IMG/VR virus record: IMGVR_UViG_3300024273_000195
Location: 1 to 24,928 of that record
Length of the DNA stretch: 24,928 nt
Strand: one strand, 5' to 3'
Source: a virus
Within the stretch, counting starts at the first letter, position 1; each line of letters starts with the position of its first letter. Position numbers and translations under genes: made by a program. Shown here in pieces: positions 1 to 17,154 of this stretch. The notes beneath the pieces were generated by a model, which saw nothing but the letters and a program-made list of their open reading frames with translations, searched no databases and was not told the origin of the DNA.

Positions 1-43
1 TGCGCGGTAGCTCTGCTTCTAACGCGACTAATACATAAATCAT
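1..43 (-). CDS. Partial ORF, possibly nucleoside phosphorylase/MTAN-like N-terminus
   Basis: An ATG at 43-41 opens a frame that runs off the window edge (14 codons, MIYVLVALEAELPR). A good ribosome site (GGAG, 8 bases before the ATG) precedes it. The start resembles the N-terminus of methylthioadenosine/adenosylhomocysteine nucleosidases and related phosphorylases, where a short hydrophobic strand is followed by a small-E-x-E segment. That similarity covers very few residues and is only a suggestion. It lies directly downstream of the tmRNA coding piece on the same strand. Confidence 0.45.
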   Translation of the reverse strand, partial: MIYVLVALEAELPR

Positions 44-59
44 ACAGTGTCTCCGGTTG

Positions 60-216
60 TAAATGGCACTTCTGTTGCTACGCAGTACCCGCGCCCACAT
101 GCCGTTAGGCTGCTAAGTTATAATTCATTTCTGCAATTATATGTTTTCTTGCGTTACGTAGCTTGCGCACGACGTCTCCACTTTCCTCACATACCAGTCG
201 ATCCTATTTCTACCCC
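60..216 (-). ncRNA. ssrA: tmRNA coding piece
   Basis: It starts GGGGTAG at 216, followed by the GGATCGACTGG segment that matches the conserved tmRNA D-arm-like region. It carries the tag reading frame at 152-105. After the tag stop, GGCAT (103-99) can pair with GTGCC (about 69-65), which may close the 3' end of this piece. The exact 3' end cannot be read; the next ORF starts at 43 with its ribosome site around 50-55. Confidence 0.85.
105..152 (-). other. tmRNA proteolysis-tag reading frame
   Basis: Fifteen codons from resume codon GCA (152-150) to TAA (107-105) encode ARKHIIAEMNYNLAA. The LAA end matches the ClpXP-recognised end of bacterial tmRNA tags, and NYNLAA resembles the E. coli end NYALAA. 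The basic start (RKH) and the hydrophobic II pair are unlike the E. coli tag. TACGTAAC just upstream of GCA occupies the position of the frame-setting element. Confidence 0.88.
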
Positions 217-217
217 A

Positions 218-334
218 TCATAAACAAACTAATATTGTGTACTGTGGATATTTAAAAACAAGTTCTTTTGCTTCTAGTAAGCTATCATATGTGTCTATGA
301 TAAGTCCAGTTTTTAAGTTTGCCACGTAATACAT
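218..334 (-). CDS. 38-residue ORF inside the tmRNA spacer
   Basis: ATG at 334-332, stop TGA at 220-218, beginning MYYVANLKTGLIIDTYDSLL and ending YTILVCL. A ribosome site AAGGA sits six bases before the ATG, in the bases just after the tmRNA CCA end. The ORF fills the 130-base gap between the mature acceptor end (347) and the first G of the coding piece (216), its stop lying one base before that G. The composition is that of a small soluble alpha/beta protein, with strand-like YYVANL, helix-like SLLEAKELVF and strand-like YTILVC. No family is recognised. It should be co-transcribed with the tmRNA precursor, so translation would compete with RNA processing. It is too short for typical gene callers. 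Confidence 0.65.
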   Translation of the reverse strand: MYYVANLKTGLIIDTYDSLLEAKELVFKYPQYTILVCL

Positions 335-346
335 TCAGTTTCCTTA

Positions 347-408
347 TGGTGGAGTAGCCGGGTACCGCCCCCGGGTTACTGCTTATGCTATGAATTGCTT
401 CATCAACG
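347..408 (-). ncRNA. ssrA: tmRNA acceptor piece
   Basis: It ends CTACTCC-ACCA at 357-347, with an encoded CCA and A as discriminator base. The T-stem is CCGGG (374-370) with CCCGG (362-358), closing a seven-base loop GGCGGTA that departs from the usual TTCRANY T-loop but keeps the central C. A small hairpin (ATGAA/TTCAT) lies upstream, around 388-402. The 5' end is placed about seven bases past the TATAAATA box and is approximate. Confidence 0.85.
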
Positions 409-413
409 TATCG

Positions 414-421
414 TATTTATA
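414..421 (-). promoter_or_regulatory. T4-type late promoter box (TATAAATA) before tmRNA
   Basis: Exact TATAAATA on the minus strand, lying in the gap after the stop codon of the 428-727 gene. The expected start of transcription, about seven bases downstream, falls where the acceptor piece begins. Confidence 0.6.
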
Positions 422-427
422 ACATGC

Positions 428-727
428 TTAGTCAAACATGTCAAGTTTTTCTTTTACTGTAGTTTGTTCTTTTTCTGGGCGAATTGGTTCTAGCCATGTG
501 TCAGCAATGTATGCTTTAGGGCTTGGTCCAAATTGAATAGTGATATCGTCGCCTTCGATCCACCAGTAGTGATCATGAACAGGGGCTTGACACGGCATGC
601 CCCTAAATTGCCACTGTTCTTTTGCTTCAAACTTACCAATATACTCGACTACTTTTACAACTAGTCCGATGTTTTCTGGGCGAATTGAATGTATAATGCG
701 GGCGTAGTCGCCTTGCTTGCATTTCAT
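428..727 (-). CDS. Conserved phage protein of unknown function
   Basis: 99 residues. The sequence is rich in short beta-strand-like stretches with turn residues (GDYARIIHSI, NIGLVVKVVEYIG, HYWWIEGDD) and resembles small SH3-like or KOW-like barrel proteins, such as those binding nucleic acid, but I cannot assign a family. Three cysteine or aromatic-rich patches (CK near the start, MPCQAP, HYWWIEG) stand out. No signal peptide or membrane segment is seen. The ATG at 727 has only a weak ribosome site (AAGAATG) and lies four bases after the stop of the upstream gene, so it is probably translated from the same message. It is the last protein gene before the tmRNA. Confidence 0.75.
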   Translation of the reverse strand: MKCKQGDYARIIHSIRPENIGLVVKVVEYIGKFEAKEQWQFRGMPCQAPVHDHYWWIEGDDITIQFGPSPKAYIADTWLEPIRPEKEQTTVKEKLDMFD

Positions 728-1812: not shown

Positions 1813-1835
1813 CCTATGTATCATTATAACACAGG
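1813..1835 (-). promoter_or_regulatory. 23-bp palindromic operator-like element over the -10
   Basis: Plus-strand pattern CCTATG-N11-CACAGG (minus CCTGTG-N11-CATAGG), centred on the -10 box. It is nested in a longer inverted repeat, CTATTGCCT (1807-1815) with AGGCAATAG (1833-1841). The same 23-base design recurs at 9024-9046 and 15406-15428. Confidence 0.55.
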
Positions 1836-1851
1836 CAATAGAGTTTGTCAA
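1823..1851 (-). promoter_or_regulatory. Sigma70 consensus promoter for the HAD gene
   Basis: TTGACA (1851-1846), 17 bases, TATAAT (1828-1823), with TGT directly before the -10 (extended -10). Both hexamers are perfect. The -35 overlaps the stop codon of the upstream gene. It reads toward the HAD, H1-like and following genes. Confidence 0.85.
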
Positions 1852-6355: not shown

Positions 6356-7980
6356 TAAGATTTAACTCTAATAGTATATGTAAATTTATCGTTGTTTGTT
6401 GCATTGGTATTAACCACTTCTATGCTTACTGTGTCAAAGGTACTGTTGCCACCAAGATCGGCCAAGTTAGCAGTAAATGTCATTCCTGCACTAATTACTG
6501 CTGGGCTTAGTGGTGGTCTAACCAACAGGTTGTATTCGTCGTTGATTGTTACATCTTCGGATCCGGCGCGATTGTCAACAGTCAGTGTTAGTACACCTTC
6601 TCTAACAATGTCGTTGAAGTCGTCGGTGTAGATATAATCTATGAAAATAGAACCAGTGTTAACAACTGGAAGTTTTAAAATCTCTGTTGAAAACAGGCGC
6701 TCTCCGATGGCAATCTGATTTGCATACTTGTTGTTGTAAAGAGTTCTACCTTCAATCTCCGGTACATATGCTTGGTTGTATGTTTCATCTGAAGCAAGGT
6801 TAGGAGACAGTGATTGTGTACGTTCAAAGTAGTCCGACTCGCTGACATTGGTAATACTGGCAAACTTAATGCAGGGTGTTCTAGTAAACTCTCTTTCAAG
6901 TGCTGGATTGTAGCCTACACCAAAGAACTTATTTCCCTTGCTGGTGTTGTACTCGCCGTTTATAATCATAATAGCTTCTTCGTCGATCAAGTCAAACGTG
7001 CAATTTTCGAAGGTGTTGAACAGCGGACCAGTGATCATTCCTACATCACCAAGTGTTGTGTTTTCTCCAAAGGATATACCAAATTTGGCCATATAGATGT
7101 AGCAATCTTTCCAGGTGTTTTCTCTTATATCATAGTTACTATACACTGCATAATGGAAGCCGTCAATCTCTAAATTTTCAAATTTATTCCATTTAGTTTC
7201 AACAGTGCCTGCACTGTCTACCCTTGATGCAAGACGTATTGCAATCAGTTGATCGTCAGCGCCGCCCGGAGCAAATCCGCCAACGACTTTAATGTTTTTA
7301 AACGTACTGTGTACGCAATCAACTACATCAAGCGCAACATTGCTGCCGGTGATGTTAATTGTAAAATCAGACATGTCAATGTATCTAGCCTGATTTGGTA
7401 CAGAGTCGTTGTAGGGAATAGTGGTTTCTACATCACTTGTGCTGTTAACAGTTTTAAAAACATTAGACAAGCTGCTAGTAAATATAGTCTTATCCTTGCC
7501 AGCGCCGCGAATGGTTGCATAAGGTGGCACAGACAACACTTCGCTGATTACATATTCTCCAGCTGGGAAATAAAGTATGACCCTGTTGCGTGATTCACCG
7601 TTGAGATACAAGCTGTTTAGTGCATTTTGAATTGCTGTGGTTTGATCTGTTCCATTGCCGCTGGCACCAAAGTTGGCAATACTCACAAAGTCGTCCAGGC
7701 GATCCTGTAAACTTCTTGCTGTGGGGATAGTTACTCCCCACAAACTGTCGTTTGGTTTGTAAGAGTATTGTTCTGCAAGGTCAAAGATATTATCGTGTTC
7801 GGTTAATACCTTGGTATTTCCTACATTAGGCGATCCTTCGCTAACACTTCCGTTACCGATATACATTTCTTGCGTGTCGATAGCCCAGCCAATTTCACCG
7901 GATGCCAGTTGAGGCATACCGGTTGATGTTAGTTTGCGTCCTCTACGATGCTGGATGCGCGAGATTTGTACAATTGCCAC
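6355..7980 (-). CDS. Tail fibre/spike protein with pectate-lyase-like beta-helix
   Basis: 541 residues. The first ~50 residues (ISRIQHRRG, then LASGEIGWAIDTQEMYIGNG) form the short phage tail-attachment motif shared with other fibres in this window. From about residue 90 a pectate_lyase_3-type right-handed beta-helix begins: VSIANFGASGNGTDQTTAIQ, followed by YFPAGEY and a PPYATIRGAGK turn. Repeating N- and G-rich coils run to about residue 450. The C-terminal ~100 residues look like a separate beta-sandwich. Such proteins sit on the tail or baseplate and bind or degrade surface polysaccharide; whether this one is catalytic cannot be read. The start is GTG at 7980, chosen because TAGGAG lies eight bases upstream and GTGGCAATTG encodes the conserved MAIVQ start. 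A TAAATA box is 28 bases upstream. Confidence 0.85.
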   Translation of the reverse strand: MAIVQISRIQHRRGRKLTSTGMPQLASGEIGWAIDTQEMYIGNGSVSEGSPNVGNTKVLTEHDNIFDLAEQYSYKPNDSLWGVTIPTARSLQDRLDDFVSIANFGASGNGTDQTTAIQNALNSLYLNGESRNRVILYFPAGEYVISEVLSVPPYATIRGAGKDKTIFTSSLSNVFKTVNSTSDVETTIPYNDSVPNQARYIDMSDFTINITGSNVALDVVDCVHSTFKNIKVVGGFAPGGADDQLIAIRLASRVDSAGTVETKWNKFENLEIDGFHYAVYSNYDIRENTWKDCYIYMAKFGISFGENTTLGDVGMITGPLFNTFENCTFDLIDEEAIMIINGEYNTSKGNKFFGVGYNPALEREFTRTPCIKFASITNVSESDYFERTQSLSPNLASDETYNQAYVPEIEGRTLYNNKYANQIAIGERLFSTEILKLPVVNTGSIFIDYIYTDDFNDIVREGVLTLTVDNRAGSEDVTINDEYNLLVRPPLSPAVISAGMTFTANLADLGGNSTFDTVSIEVVNTNATNNDKFTYTIRVKS

Positions 7981-8014: not shown

Positions 8015-8694
8015 GCATTTTTCTCGTAATACATTTTGCAACGCTTCCACCATTCAGCTTCCCACTCATCAAACTCATCAGGCCATAGATCAAACTGTTG
8101 ATACTGTAGATCACGGCTACACATAAAGATATGTCCTTCACGGATATCTGTGCCGTGTACTGCATTATGACCTAATGCGTATGCTGTAAGTTGTAGGTAG
8201 TAGTCTTCTACCCACTCGGGCTTCTTGGGCTTGTTTGTTTGCTTGAAGTCCATGATACAAGGATTGCCCTTGTATGTGCCTACAAGATCAGTTGTACCAG
8301 CATAGATACCAGGAACATAGAGCGGAACTTCACTGCCCCAGATTTCATCAACATGCACCATTGCTTCGTCACGTACCACACATGCCATCTTGTATGCTTG
8401 TTGTGCATAGGGATTGCTGCCCGGACTCTCTGTCCACACTCCGTTGTCAACATAATCCTCGAGGTACTTGTGCATACGTGTGCCAACACCAGCAGCTTCG
8501 GTTACAATCTCTTGTGCTTTAGCTTCGCCTACACGCTTCTTCCATGCAATAAGGTGGCTCATGTCTTTAGTACCACTGAGGATAGTAGTAACACTTGCTA
8601 CAGGAGCGTAACCGGGTGCTGCGTAACGGCGCTTGCCATCTACTTCAACACGCTGTAGTTTTTCGTATTTGTATTTTTCAATTATCAAAGTCAT
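8011..8694 (-). CDS. PD-(D/E)XK exonuclease, RecB/Cas4-like
   Basis: 227 residues from ATG 8694. A frame opens 30 bases further up at 8724, but 8694 is chosen because GAGG lies about eight bases upstream and the overlap with the NifU-like gene becomes smaller (17 bases). Nuclease signature in order: G-T-R-M-H-K-Y-L-E at 71-79, an E in SEVPLY (E122), D136 in GTTDLVG, D149-F-K151 and Q168 in YYLQLTAYA. This matches RecB/Cas4/MGME1-type single-strand exonucleases that use two metals. T4-like marine phages often carry such a gene, probably for recombination or degradation of DNA ends. No cysteine cluster typical of Fe-S Cas4 is seen, so Cas4 itself is unlikely. Confidence 0.87.
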   Translation of the reverse strand: MTLIIEKYKYEKLQRVEVDGKRRYAAPGYAPVASVTTILSGTKDMSHLIAWKKRVGEAKAQEIVTEAAGVGTRMHKYLEDYVDNGVWTESPGSNPYAQQAYKMACVVRDEAMVHVDEIWGSEVPLYVPGIYAGTTDLVGTYKGNPCIMDFKQTNKPKKPEWVEDYYLQLTAYALGHNAVHGTDIREGHIFMCSRDLQYQQFDLWPDEFDEWEAEWWKRCKMYYEKNA

Positions 8695-9016
8695 CGGACG
8701 ATCCTCGGTAGAACGTGTTGTCATTCATATCCATCATTGAATAATAAGGATCTACAGTGCTAGACGGATCGTCCATGCCTTGGACTTCTGTAACCTCTGG
8801 CACCATTTCTCGCAGCATATTTTCTACACCAAATTTAAGTGTTGCTGCACTTCCTGCACATCCGCTACATGCACCACTAAGCTCTAGCATAACTAGGCCA
8901 TCTTCAAAACTGACAAAGTTTACTTCGCCACCGTGGCCCGCAACTGCTGGCGCAATATATTGCTCCAGCACTTGTTTGATGTCTTCTGTGATTTGTTCGT
9001 TGGTTCTATTGGTCAT
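8678..9016 (-). CDS. NifU-like iron-sulfur scaffold (Nfu-type)
   Basis: 112 residues. The NifU C-terminal domain covers about residues 8-75, with E-x-x-x-A-P-A-V-A-G-H-G-G-E-V leading into the C50-S-G-C53 motif (SGACSGCAGSAATLKFGVEN). Nfu proteins assemble or carry 4Fe-4S clusters through this CxxC as a dimer. The last ~35 residues (DPSSTVDPYYSMMDMNDNTF) are acidic, disordered-looking and not part of the family. It is preceded by TAGGAG and a sigma70-type promoter with the palindromic element, so it is probably an early gene. It may support host Fe-S supply during infection; the clients are unknown, and the adjacent nuclease lacks visible Fe-S cysteines. Confidence 0.92.
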   Translation of the reverse strand: MTNRTNEQITEDIKQVLEQYIAPAVAGHGGEVNFVSFEDGLVMLELSGACSGCAGSAATLKFGVENMLREMVPEVTEVQGMDDPSSTVDPYYSMMDMNDNTFYRGSSDDFDN

Positions 9017-15448: not shown

Positions 15449-16432
15449 TTATTTTAGATCAGCAACCATTGCTTGTGTTGCTGCTAGTTCTGGATCACTA
15501 ACAAGACCGTATGTTGCTAGTGGACTGTCTGGACCTACCATATCGTCACTTACAAAGAATTCAACATATTCACGCATACCAGGAATAACATCCAAGTGAG
15601 CGTTCTTTACGTAAAAGTAAAGTGGACGACTGATTGGGTATTCACCACTGGCAATAGTCTCTGTTGATGGTGTTACACCGTTGATGTCTGCTGCGTAGAG
15701 TTTATCTCTGTTGTTCATTAAGAAAGACAACCCAAACACACCTATCGCATCTGGGTTTGACGCTAAACGGTTTAGTGTTTCTGTATAGTCGCCGTCAATG
15801 TCAACGCTTACGCTATCTTTACGAACTTCCATACAAGCTGATTCTGCTAGTTTCTTATCATCGGCATTTTGTTTTAGGAAGTAGTCATACGAACCAACTG
15901 CTTTACAACCTTCTAACATAACTTTAACATCAAACACTTCGCGTGTTCCGTGCTTGGTGCCTGGAACAAATACTTGAATCGCTTTGTTTGGAAGTGAAGC
16001 ATCAACTTCATTCCAATTTTTAACTGTACTGTTTGCACTTAACGCAACATAAACGTGTTGAGGTGTTAGGTTAGCAAATCCAGCGTTGCTTAGATTAGCA
16101 GCAAATACAATGCCATCATACCCAATACGAACTTCAGTTACAGGGCCTACAACTGCTTCACAGCGTTCCCATTCGTCTGCTTTCATTTTACTTGAACTGT
16201 TGGCAATATCAATTGTGTTCTCGCCAGTGCCTTCGCATAGACGCTTGCGTCCTGAACCCGAGCCACCACCTTCTACTACTGGTGTTGGAAAATCAAAGTT
16301 TTCTCCAAACGCTTCTGCTACTATTGTAGCGTATGGAAGCACTGTTGAACTTCCTGAAATTGCAATACCGTCACGAGCAAACGCTGTTGTGGCTGTTAGG
16401 GCTACTACTGTAGCCATTATTAAAGTTTTCAT
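15449..16432 (-). CDS. pstS: Periplasmic phosphate-binding protein PstS
   Basis: 327 residues from ATG 16432, chosen because MKTLIMATVVALTATTAFA is a clean signal peptide with an AFA cleavage site and AAAGGAAAG lies upstream; an ATG at 16459 would add nine charged residues in front of it. Phosphate-site motifs are visible: ISGSSTVLP just after the signal, EGGGSGSGRKR, and DIANSSSKMK. These are the loops that hold phosphate in PstS-type receptors. Four cysteines could form two disulfides in the periplasm. Cyanophages and other marine phages carry pstS to keep host phosphate import active during infection. No pstA, pstB or pstC is seen, so it must work with the host transporter. A candidate Pho box lies upstream. 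Confidence 0.93.
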   Translation of the reverse strand: MKTLIMATVVALTATTAFARDGIAISGSSTVLPYATIVAEAFGENFDFPTPVVEGGGSGSGRKRLCEGTGENTIDIANSSSKMKADEWERCEAVVGPVTEVRIGYDGIVFAANLSNAGFANLTPQHVYVALSANSTVKNWNEVDASLPNKAIQVFVPGTKHGTREVFDVKVMLEGCKAVGSYDYFLKQNADDKKLAESACMEVRKDSVSVDIDGDYTETLNRLASNPDAIGVFGLSFLMNNRDKLYAADINGVTPSTETIASGEYPISRPLYFYVKNAHLDVIPGMREYVEFFVSDDMVGPDSPLATYGLVSDPELAATQAMVADLK

Positions 16433-16729
16433 ATATCTTTCCTTTTCATTTTCATACAAATAAAGGACACCGTCTACACTGTGTGAGTTGTGTGTGTTTG
16501 TGTGTGTCTCTTTACTTATTCTTTATAGTAGCATATAATTGTAACAGAATTATAACAAACTTTGCGTTCTTTAAAATATTTCTAGCCTGCGTTGTTCTAG
16601 CACAGTTGCATAAAACGCTGAGACGGTATGCAAAAAACGCAGTTGTTCTTTGGTCAAAACTAGTGTAAATATATAGACAATGCTGCAACACAGCATTATC
16701 ACACATATACATATACAAGGAAATATAAA
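16433..16729. promoter_or_regulatory. Divergent regulatory region between pstS and the DUF1127 operon
   Basis: About 300 bases without a convincing gene. Seen here: a CA-rich pstS leader (16465-16512), a candidate Pho box (16540-16557), a 6-bp inverted repeat TTGCAT/ATGCAA (about 16607-16633), two AAAACGC direct repeats nearby, and a perfect 7-bp hairpin AATGCTG/CAGCATT (16679-16697) in the leader of the plus-strand operon. An antisense frame at 16512-16799 exists but has no protein-like composition. Confidence 0.6.
16540..16557 (-). promoter_or_regulatory. Candidate Pho box upstream of pstS
   Basis: Minus-strand direct repeat TGTTATA-ATTC-TGTTACA: 7-base units every 11 bases, the geometry of PhoB sites (consensus CTGTCAT-type units). 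A TATAAA-like -10 follows 12 bases downstream and the pstS ATG is 108 bases away. The units have T where the consensus has C, so binding strength is uncertain. Confidence 0.5.
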
Positions 16730-16927
16730 ATGACAACGTCGACACTGAACACATACTACTGCGCATTCTGTGCAGCAGTCTCAAAATCTGCAAAAGCAAC
16801 CTTCACTAAGTTTATGGCAGCGACTGAAACAATCGGCACTGCAAGAGCTGCTACCGAACTAGCTCGTCTAGGATACCACAAAGAAGCCAAAGCACTTATG
16901 CTGGGCAAGAATGTGGAGGACATCTAA
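16730..16927 (+). CDS. Small Cys-motif protein, paired with a DUF1127 protein
   Basis: 65 residues. N-terminal Y-C11-A-F-C14, a helical middle, and a C-terminal stretch ARAATELARLGYHKEAKALM that resembles short alphaproteobacterial host proteins often encoded with DUF1127 genes. The N-terminus (TYYCAFC) is like that of the next protein (TYCAMC), so the two may be paralogs that diverged at the C-terminus. AAGGAA lies eight bases before the ATG and a 7-bp hairpin stands in the leader. The stop overlaps the next start by one base (TAATG). This is the first gene of a plus-strand operon facing away from pstS. Function unknown; transfer from the host is likely. Confidence 0.75.
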   Translation: MTTSTLNTYYCAFCAAVSKSAKATFTKFMAATETIGTARAATELARLGYHKEAKALMLGKNVEDI

Positions 16928-17154
16928 TGAATACCCTAACAGCAACATATTGCGCCATGTGCGAAAAAATTGCATCGGCATTTCGTGCTATTAGACTTGA
17001 AATGTTTGAACAAACTGCATTTGATCCTCGATTCAACAAAGCAACTTACAACGAACTATCCGGTTTGTCTGACTACGAGCTACGCGACATTGGTATTACA
17101 CGCGGTGACATCATGCACCTATCAATGGGCGGAGAGGTCCACAGAGGTCGCTAA
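16927..17154 (+). CDS. DUF1127 (YjiS-like) small protein
   Basis: 75 residues. The DUF1127 core is at 44-62 (LSGLSDYELRDIGITRGDI), matching the family pattern L-x-x-L-S-D-x-E-L-x-D-I-G-x-x-R-G-D-I. N-terminal Y-C9-A-M-C12 is shared with the preceding protein. DUF1127 proteins are abundant in alphaproteobacteria; in Agrobacterium they have been linked to phosphate and carbon metabolism, and in Rhodobacter one acts with RNA. A strong GGAGG ribosome site lies seven bases upstream, inside the previous gene, and the starts overlap by TAATG on both sides. Position opposite pstS supports a link to phosphate control; this is inference. Confidence 0.88.
   Translation: MNTLTATYCAMCEKIASAFRAIRLEMFEQTAFDPRFNKATYNELSGLSDYELRDIGITRGDIMHLSMGGEVHRGR

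Follow-up and report, generated by a model that had tools for sequence, protein, structure and literature searches.

Two-piece tmRNAs are already known in phages, for instance in the methylophage Melnitz and in roseophages. Among 133 unique phage tmRNAs, 53 two-piece structures were described, 50 of which came from marine or aquatic phages (PMC9004378). The tmRNA of Melnitz and of its marine relatives is permuted and akin to the alphaproteobacterial kind, and the Melnitz gene was described with an early promoter and a glutamine riboswitch (PMC9004378). A permuted tmRNA is also annotated in the roseophage Bacteriophage DSS3_MAL1 (MN602268).

We found a gene of this kind in an IMG/VR virus record of 24,928 bases, which was analysed whole (hereafter the window) and which carries genes for ribonucleotide reductase, an exonuclease, virion proteins and tail fibres. 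Upon a cmscan search of the whole window against all Rfam models, a permuted tmRNA gene was identified on the minus strand at about 61-409, with a match to RF04321 of 70.3 bits (curated cut-off 47, E 6.7e-12) and a match to RF01849 (alpha_tmRNA) of 58.9 bits (cut-off 50, E 4.3e-14). An earlier note, made from the sequence alone, had proposed a phage-encoded, permuted tmRNA of the alphaproteobacterial type and had asked for such a covariance-model search; the proposal is backed by both Rfam matches, by the phage genes of the window and by the relatives described below. ARAGORN did not report the tmRNA gene in the window, and this program can overlook genes of this kind and predict tags that are too long for them.

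The gene shares its order of parts, the acceptor and T arm, the resume context and the 3' pseudoknot with alphaproteobacterial ssrA (RF01849), whereas the tags and the promoter of the phage family are unlike the bacterial ones. Compared with Melnitz, with its early promoter and glutamine riboswitch (PMC9004378), the window has a promoter composed of TTGACA and TATAAATA, and Rfam reported no riboswitch in the window. The gene of DSS3_MAL1, the matched pieces of which are about 88% like those of one relative of the window gene (L253), differs in its tag (ANTNAAPMEMAIAA) and in that it adjoins tRNA genes and not an ORF of phrog_2529; it also belongs to a different phage group. The features of the locus are as follows.

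1-43, minus strand: 5' end of the following gene, a member of the phosphorylase/nucleosidase superfamily that is present in full in contig L240.
61-216, minus strand: coding piece, with the 5' acceptor strand GGGGUAG, D-region, first pseudoknot, tag frame and 3' pseudoknot (Rfam match; the 3' end is approximate, the last conserved stem stopping near 65).
65-100, minus strand, left boundary approximate: alpha-type 3' pseudoknot ending in ...GCGUAGCAACAGAAGUGCC (read by eye).
105-134, minus strand: tag reading frame AEMNYNLAA plus stop.
217-346, minus strand: intervening segment of 130 nt, presumably removed (comparison with relatives).
347-409, minus strand: acceptor piece, the 5' part of the precursor, with a P2 strand, the T arm, the 3' acceptor strand and ACCA (RF04321 and RF01849 matches; cofolding).
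358-374, minus strand: T arm CCGGG-GGCGGUA-CCCGG (Rfam match).
414-421, minus strand: TATAAATA, a -10 element and T4-late-type box combined.
428-727, minus strand: conserved small ORF (phrog_2529), directly upstream of the tmRNA here and preceding it in many relatives too.
439-444, minus strand: -35 element TTGACA.

The permuted order follows from the position of CTACTCCACCA (357-347) upstream of GGGGTAG (216-210) on the minus strand. All seven positions of GGGGTAG pair with CTACTCC (357-351), which is followed by ACCA (350-347), the pairs being G1-C72, G2-C71, G3-U70, G4-C69, U5-A68, A6-U67 and G7-C66, and the T stem CCGGG/CCCGG adjoins this acceptor stem. The acceptor pairing, the upstream acceptor piece, the G3-U70 pair and the adjacent T arm had thus been read correctly, base by base, in the earlier note, which left the minus strand unstated, overlooked TTGACA and made the tag six codons too long. 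Cofolding of the two pieces recovered the expected fold, but we did not take this as evidence, because its energy was unexceptional (z -0.8, no better than shuffles).

A search of viral contigs with the upstream ORF and NrdB gave 160 loci, in which signature scans identified 41 distinct tmRNA entries, many directly behind the phrog_2529 ORF. The gene was present in all six related phage records that were searched whole (13 to 246 kb), and one 20-base tmRNA pattern matched at least 120 viral contigs, some of which may be host DNA. DNA searches against phage isolates gave no match for the first 800 bases of the window or for the upstream ORF. In most relatives the intervening segment is 29 to 130 nt long, and in one it reaches 245 nt.

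Covariation was assessed in the 32 distinct sequences, counting the window, that have a complete tag. All seven positions of the acceptor stem were paired in 32 of 32 (four kinds of base pair were seen at position 5, three at position 6), the T stem was paired in all 32, and G3-U70, the alanine acceptor signal, was invariant, although the relatives share ancestry and such counts are not counts of independent events. With shuffled partners pairing reached 91% at most, a control that retains column make-up and ignores relatedness, so that the effect size does not translate into a probability. The stems of the 3' pseudoknot differ between relatives and stay complementary (CAACUU/AAGUUG, CGACUU/AAGUCG, GGUAC/GUGCC, GGAGGC/GCCUCC); these stems and P2 were read by eye, without statistics. 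Stems that change in step point to selection on the RNA. Together with the permuted order, the resume context, the short tag ending in LAA and a dedicated promoter that was kept, these elements form the sequence basis on which we consider the gene very likely to be a functional tmRNA gene.

We considered whether this is a host tmRNA gene copy that decayed, or was captured only recently, and has no function in the phage. The window copy has the lowest Rfam score among the relatives tested, some of which reach 131 bits, and it is missed by ARAGORN, so that partial decay of this copy is conceivable; yet no defining element is broken. The compensatory stem changes across relatives, the intact tag and resume site, the conserved promoter and the presence of an identical ORF and tmRNA in a separate contig (L240) all argue against a functionless copy, which we therefore regard as improbable.

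The resume codon was located with a profile of 17 positions (the codon and the 14 bases before it) derived from 114 alphaproteobacterial alpha-type tmRNAs in fetched genome loci. The GCA at 134-132 scored +15.8 bits, near the bacterial median of 16.9, and it is at this internal GCA that the relatives, with their homologous tags, and the bacterial sequences align. Because this later GCA has the resume context common to bacterial tmRNAs, we read the tag as AEMNYNLAA. The earlier note had started from the GCA at 152-150, which scored -14.6 bits, and had arrived at ARKHIIAEMNYNLAA, a tag that has to be shortened by six codons; the residues RKH and II, which it singled out as unusual, belong to a conserved stretch ahead of the resume codon that is not translated. 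In three other viral contigs (L108, L075 and L118) ARAGORN gave odd long tags (e.g. AKKAHNDNINYSAMKIAA), which may be over-extended frames as well.

In the phage family the tags have mostly lost the ANDN start of the bacterial tags and have retained LAA. An ANDN start was found in 3 of 32 phage tags and an LAA end in 29 of 32, as against an ANDN start in 110 of the 114 bacterial tags, a contrast that is inflated because the bacterial sample was selected for AA[C/T]GA after the first codon; the same ANDN pattern appeared in the tags that ARAGORN listed for these genomes, where this condition did not apply. In Escherichia coli the two parts of the tag have different binding partners, the adaptor SspB for the front and ClpX for the end. 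The phage tag may escape such an adaptor. We found nothing specific in the literature on the function of phage tmRNA tags.

That tag fronts differ from the bacterial tag would also suit a decoy, a tRNA-like part that ties up SmpB or otherwise inhibits host trans-translation without any tagging. An inhibitor of this kind was reported for a molecule like the mycobacteriophage DS6A gene, which consists of the tRNA-like domain only (PMC4131195; PMC11915505). The present gene has kept its tag frame, resume site and 3' pseudoknot, none of which a decoy needs, and we judge a decoy to be about as improbable as the decayed copy. The weakest alternative, that ARKHIIAEMNYNLAA in its full length serves as the tag and steers proteins to a different protease, draws on a frame that is open back to the GCA at 152 and on a similar extension by ARAGORN in L253, but it is very improbable in view of the resume-site scores and the alignment at the internal GCA, on which grounds we rejected the long tag.

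The promoter of the gene is conserved in the family. Among 33 distinct family promoters TATAAATA was identical in all and each position of TTGACA was kept in 91-97%, almost always with 17 bases between the two elements, while the spacers themselves were only 39% alike on average. Other TTGACA promoters in the same loci had TATAAATA in only 11 of 101 cases, several of which again occupy this site after the phrog_2529 ORF, and 59 of 70 other TATAAATA sites had at most four matches to a -35 element. In the window, two further TATAAATA sites, neither with a good -35 element, are located 20-30 bases upstream of genes in the tail-fibre region. The tmRNA promoter was not listed by a promoter scan, because the scan demanded T at position 6 of the -10 element. 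In addition, a second consensus promoter (1823-1851, minus strand; TTGACA-17-TATAAT) was observed before a phosphatase-like gene, without TATAAATA, and is found in L240 too.

The earlier note had predicted late expression from TATAAATA. The strict late-type box indeed stands, but a T4-type late promoter has no -35 element and here a consensus sigma-70 promoter with a conserved TTGACA is present, for which reason we rejected a late-only promoter. Since TATAAATA was kept, in almost all cases with TTGACA 17 bases upstream, expression both early and late is likelier than late expression only, and reading by host sigma-70 as well as by a late phage sigma factor seems rather probable. A gene for a gp55-type late sigma factor was found only in the 246-kb relative (G006); the window and the remaining records, classed as linear and perhaps fragmentary, yielded none.

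The explanation that we prefer, and consider likely as a whole, is that of a functional two-piece tmRNA gene of the alphaproteobacterial type, encoded by the phage, acting in ribosome rescue during infection and controlled by a dual promoter. Transcription would start near 408, and the precursor would be processed into two RNAs by host enzymes that cut out the 130-nt segment between the pieces. Loading would fall to AlaRS and SmpB of the host (no SmpB was found in seven phage records), and the tmRNA would then free ribosomes stalled on broken mRNAs during infection and add AEMNYNLAA, the LAA end of which would still be read by a ClpXP-type protease of the host. Given the consensus -35 element combined with a strict TATAAATA, the promoter would probably serve the host sigma-70 polymerase early in infection and a gp55-type phage sigma factor late, which would keep up the rescue capacity during host shutdown.

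The 3' ends of the relatives are of two kinds, matching either alpha_tmRNA or, in the region ...CCUUGUUACCAAA, beta_tmRNA, and some of the genes score best with RF01850. In L241, L316, L288, L313 and other contigs, alpha-type 5' parts were seen joined to a 3' module of the beta_tmRNA type. Shared middle segments (first pseudoknot) occur with either 3' module, which suggests module exchange between alpha-type and beta-type 3' parts. Of 80 contigs (L240-L319), 28 stopped no more than 500 bases past the phrog_2529 ORF, and no contig end lay that close on its upstream side; the tmRNA locus is a hotspot for assembly breaks and the hybrids may therefore be chimeric contigs. More speculatively, the gene might be a phage-adapted, exchangeable cassette that has shed ANDN, presumably the adaptor-binding part, has kept LAA, has a 3' half that can be swapped between alpha and beta types and has a promoter read by host and phage sigma factors, and that would give the phage its own ribosome rescue throughout infection.

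The tmRNA had also been put forward as an indicator of the host lineage. Its alpha-type tRNA-like part agrees with a further gene of the window, which encodes a PstS-like phosphate-binding protein (15449-16459, minus strand; an auxiliary metabolic gene and host clue, at most 65% identical to Rhodobacterales proteins), and a Rhodobacterales host is plausible. Of the genomes of the Sulfitobacter order (Rhodobacterales), 58 have a match to the PstS-like protein, and in 54 of these the identity is 56-65%, as against 36-42% in the SAR116 order (one fragment 50%); in a sample of the whole class, the widest bacterial group covered, the next best two genomes gave 55% and 49% and the rest at most 47%. 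The best protein matches among isolates were to large phages of several hosts. Because relatives mix alpha-type and beta-type parts, the tmRNA type by itself is of little use for telling the host of these phages.

Other genes observed were those for a small DUF1127 protein on the opposite strand (16927-17154, plus strand) and for a phage protein with a NifU-like iron-sulphur scaffold domain (8678-9016, minus strand). In L240, an ORF with a signal-peptide-like start (6559-7335, plus strand) lies downstream of the tmRNA and the nucleosidase-like gene; it looked porin-like by eye and had no Pfam match.

The large related set, the conserved dual-type promoter and the altered tags lead to two predictions for this phage family, namely that the tmRNA would be expressed in both phases of infection and that its tags would use ClpXP without the adaptor.
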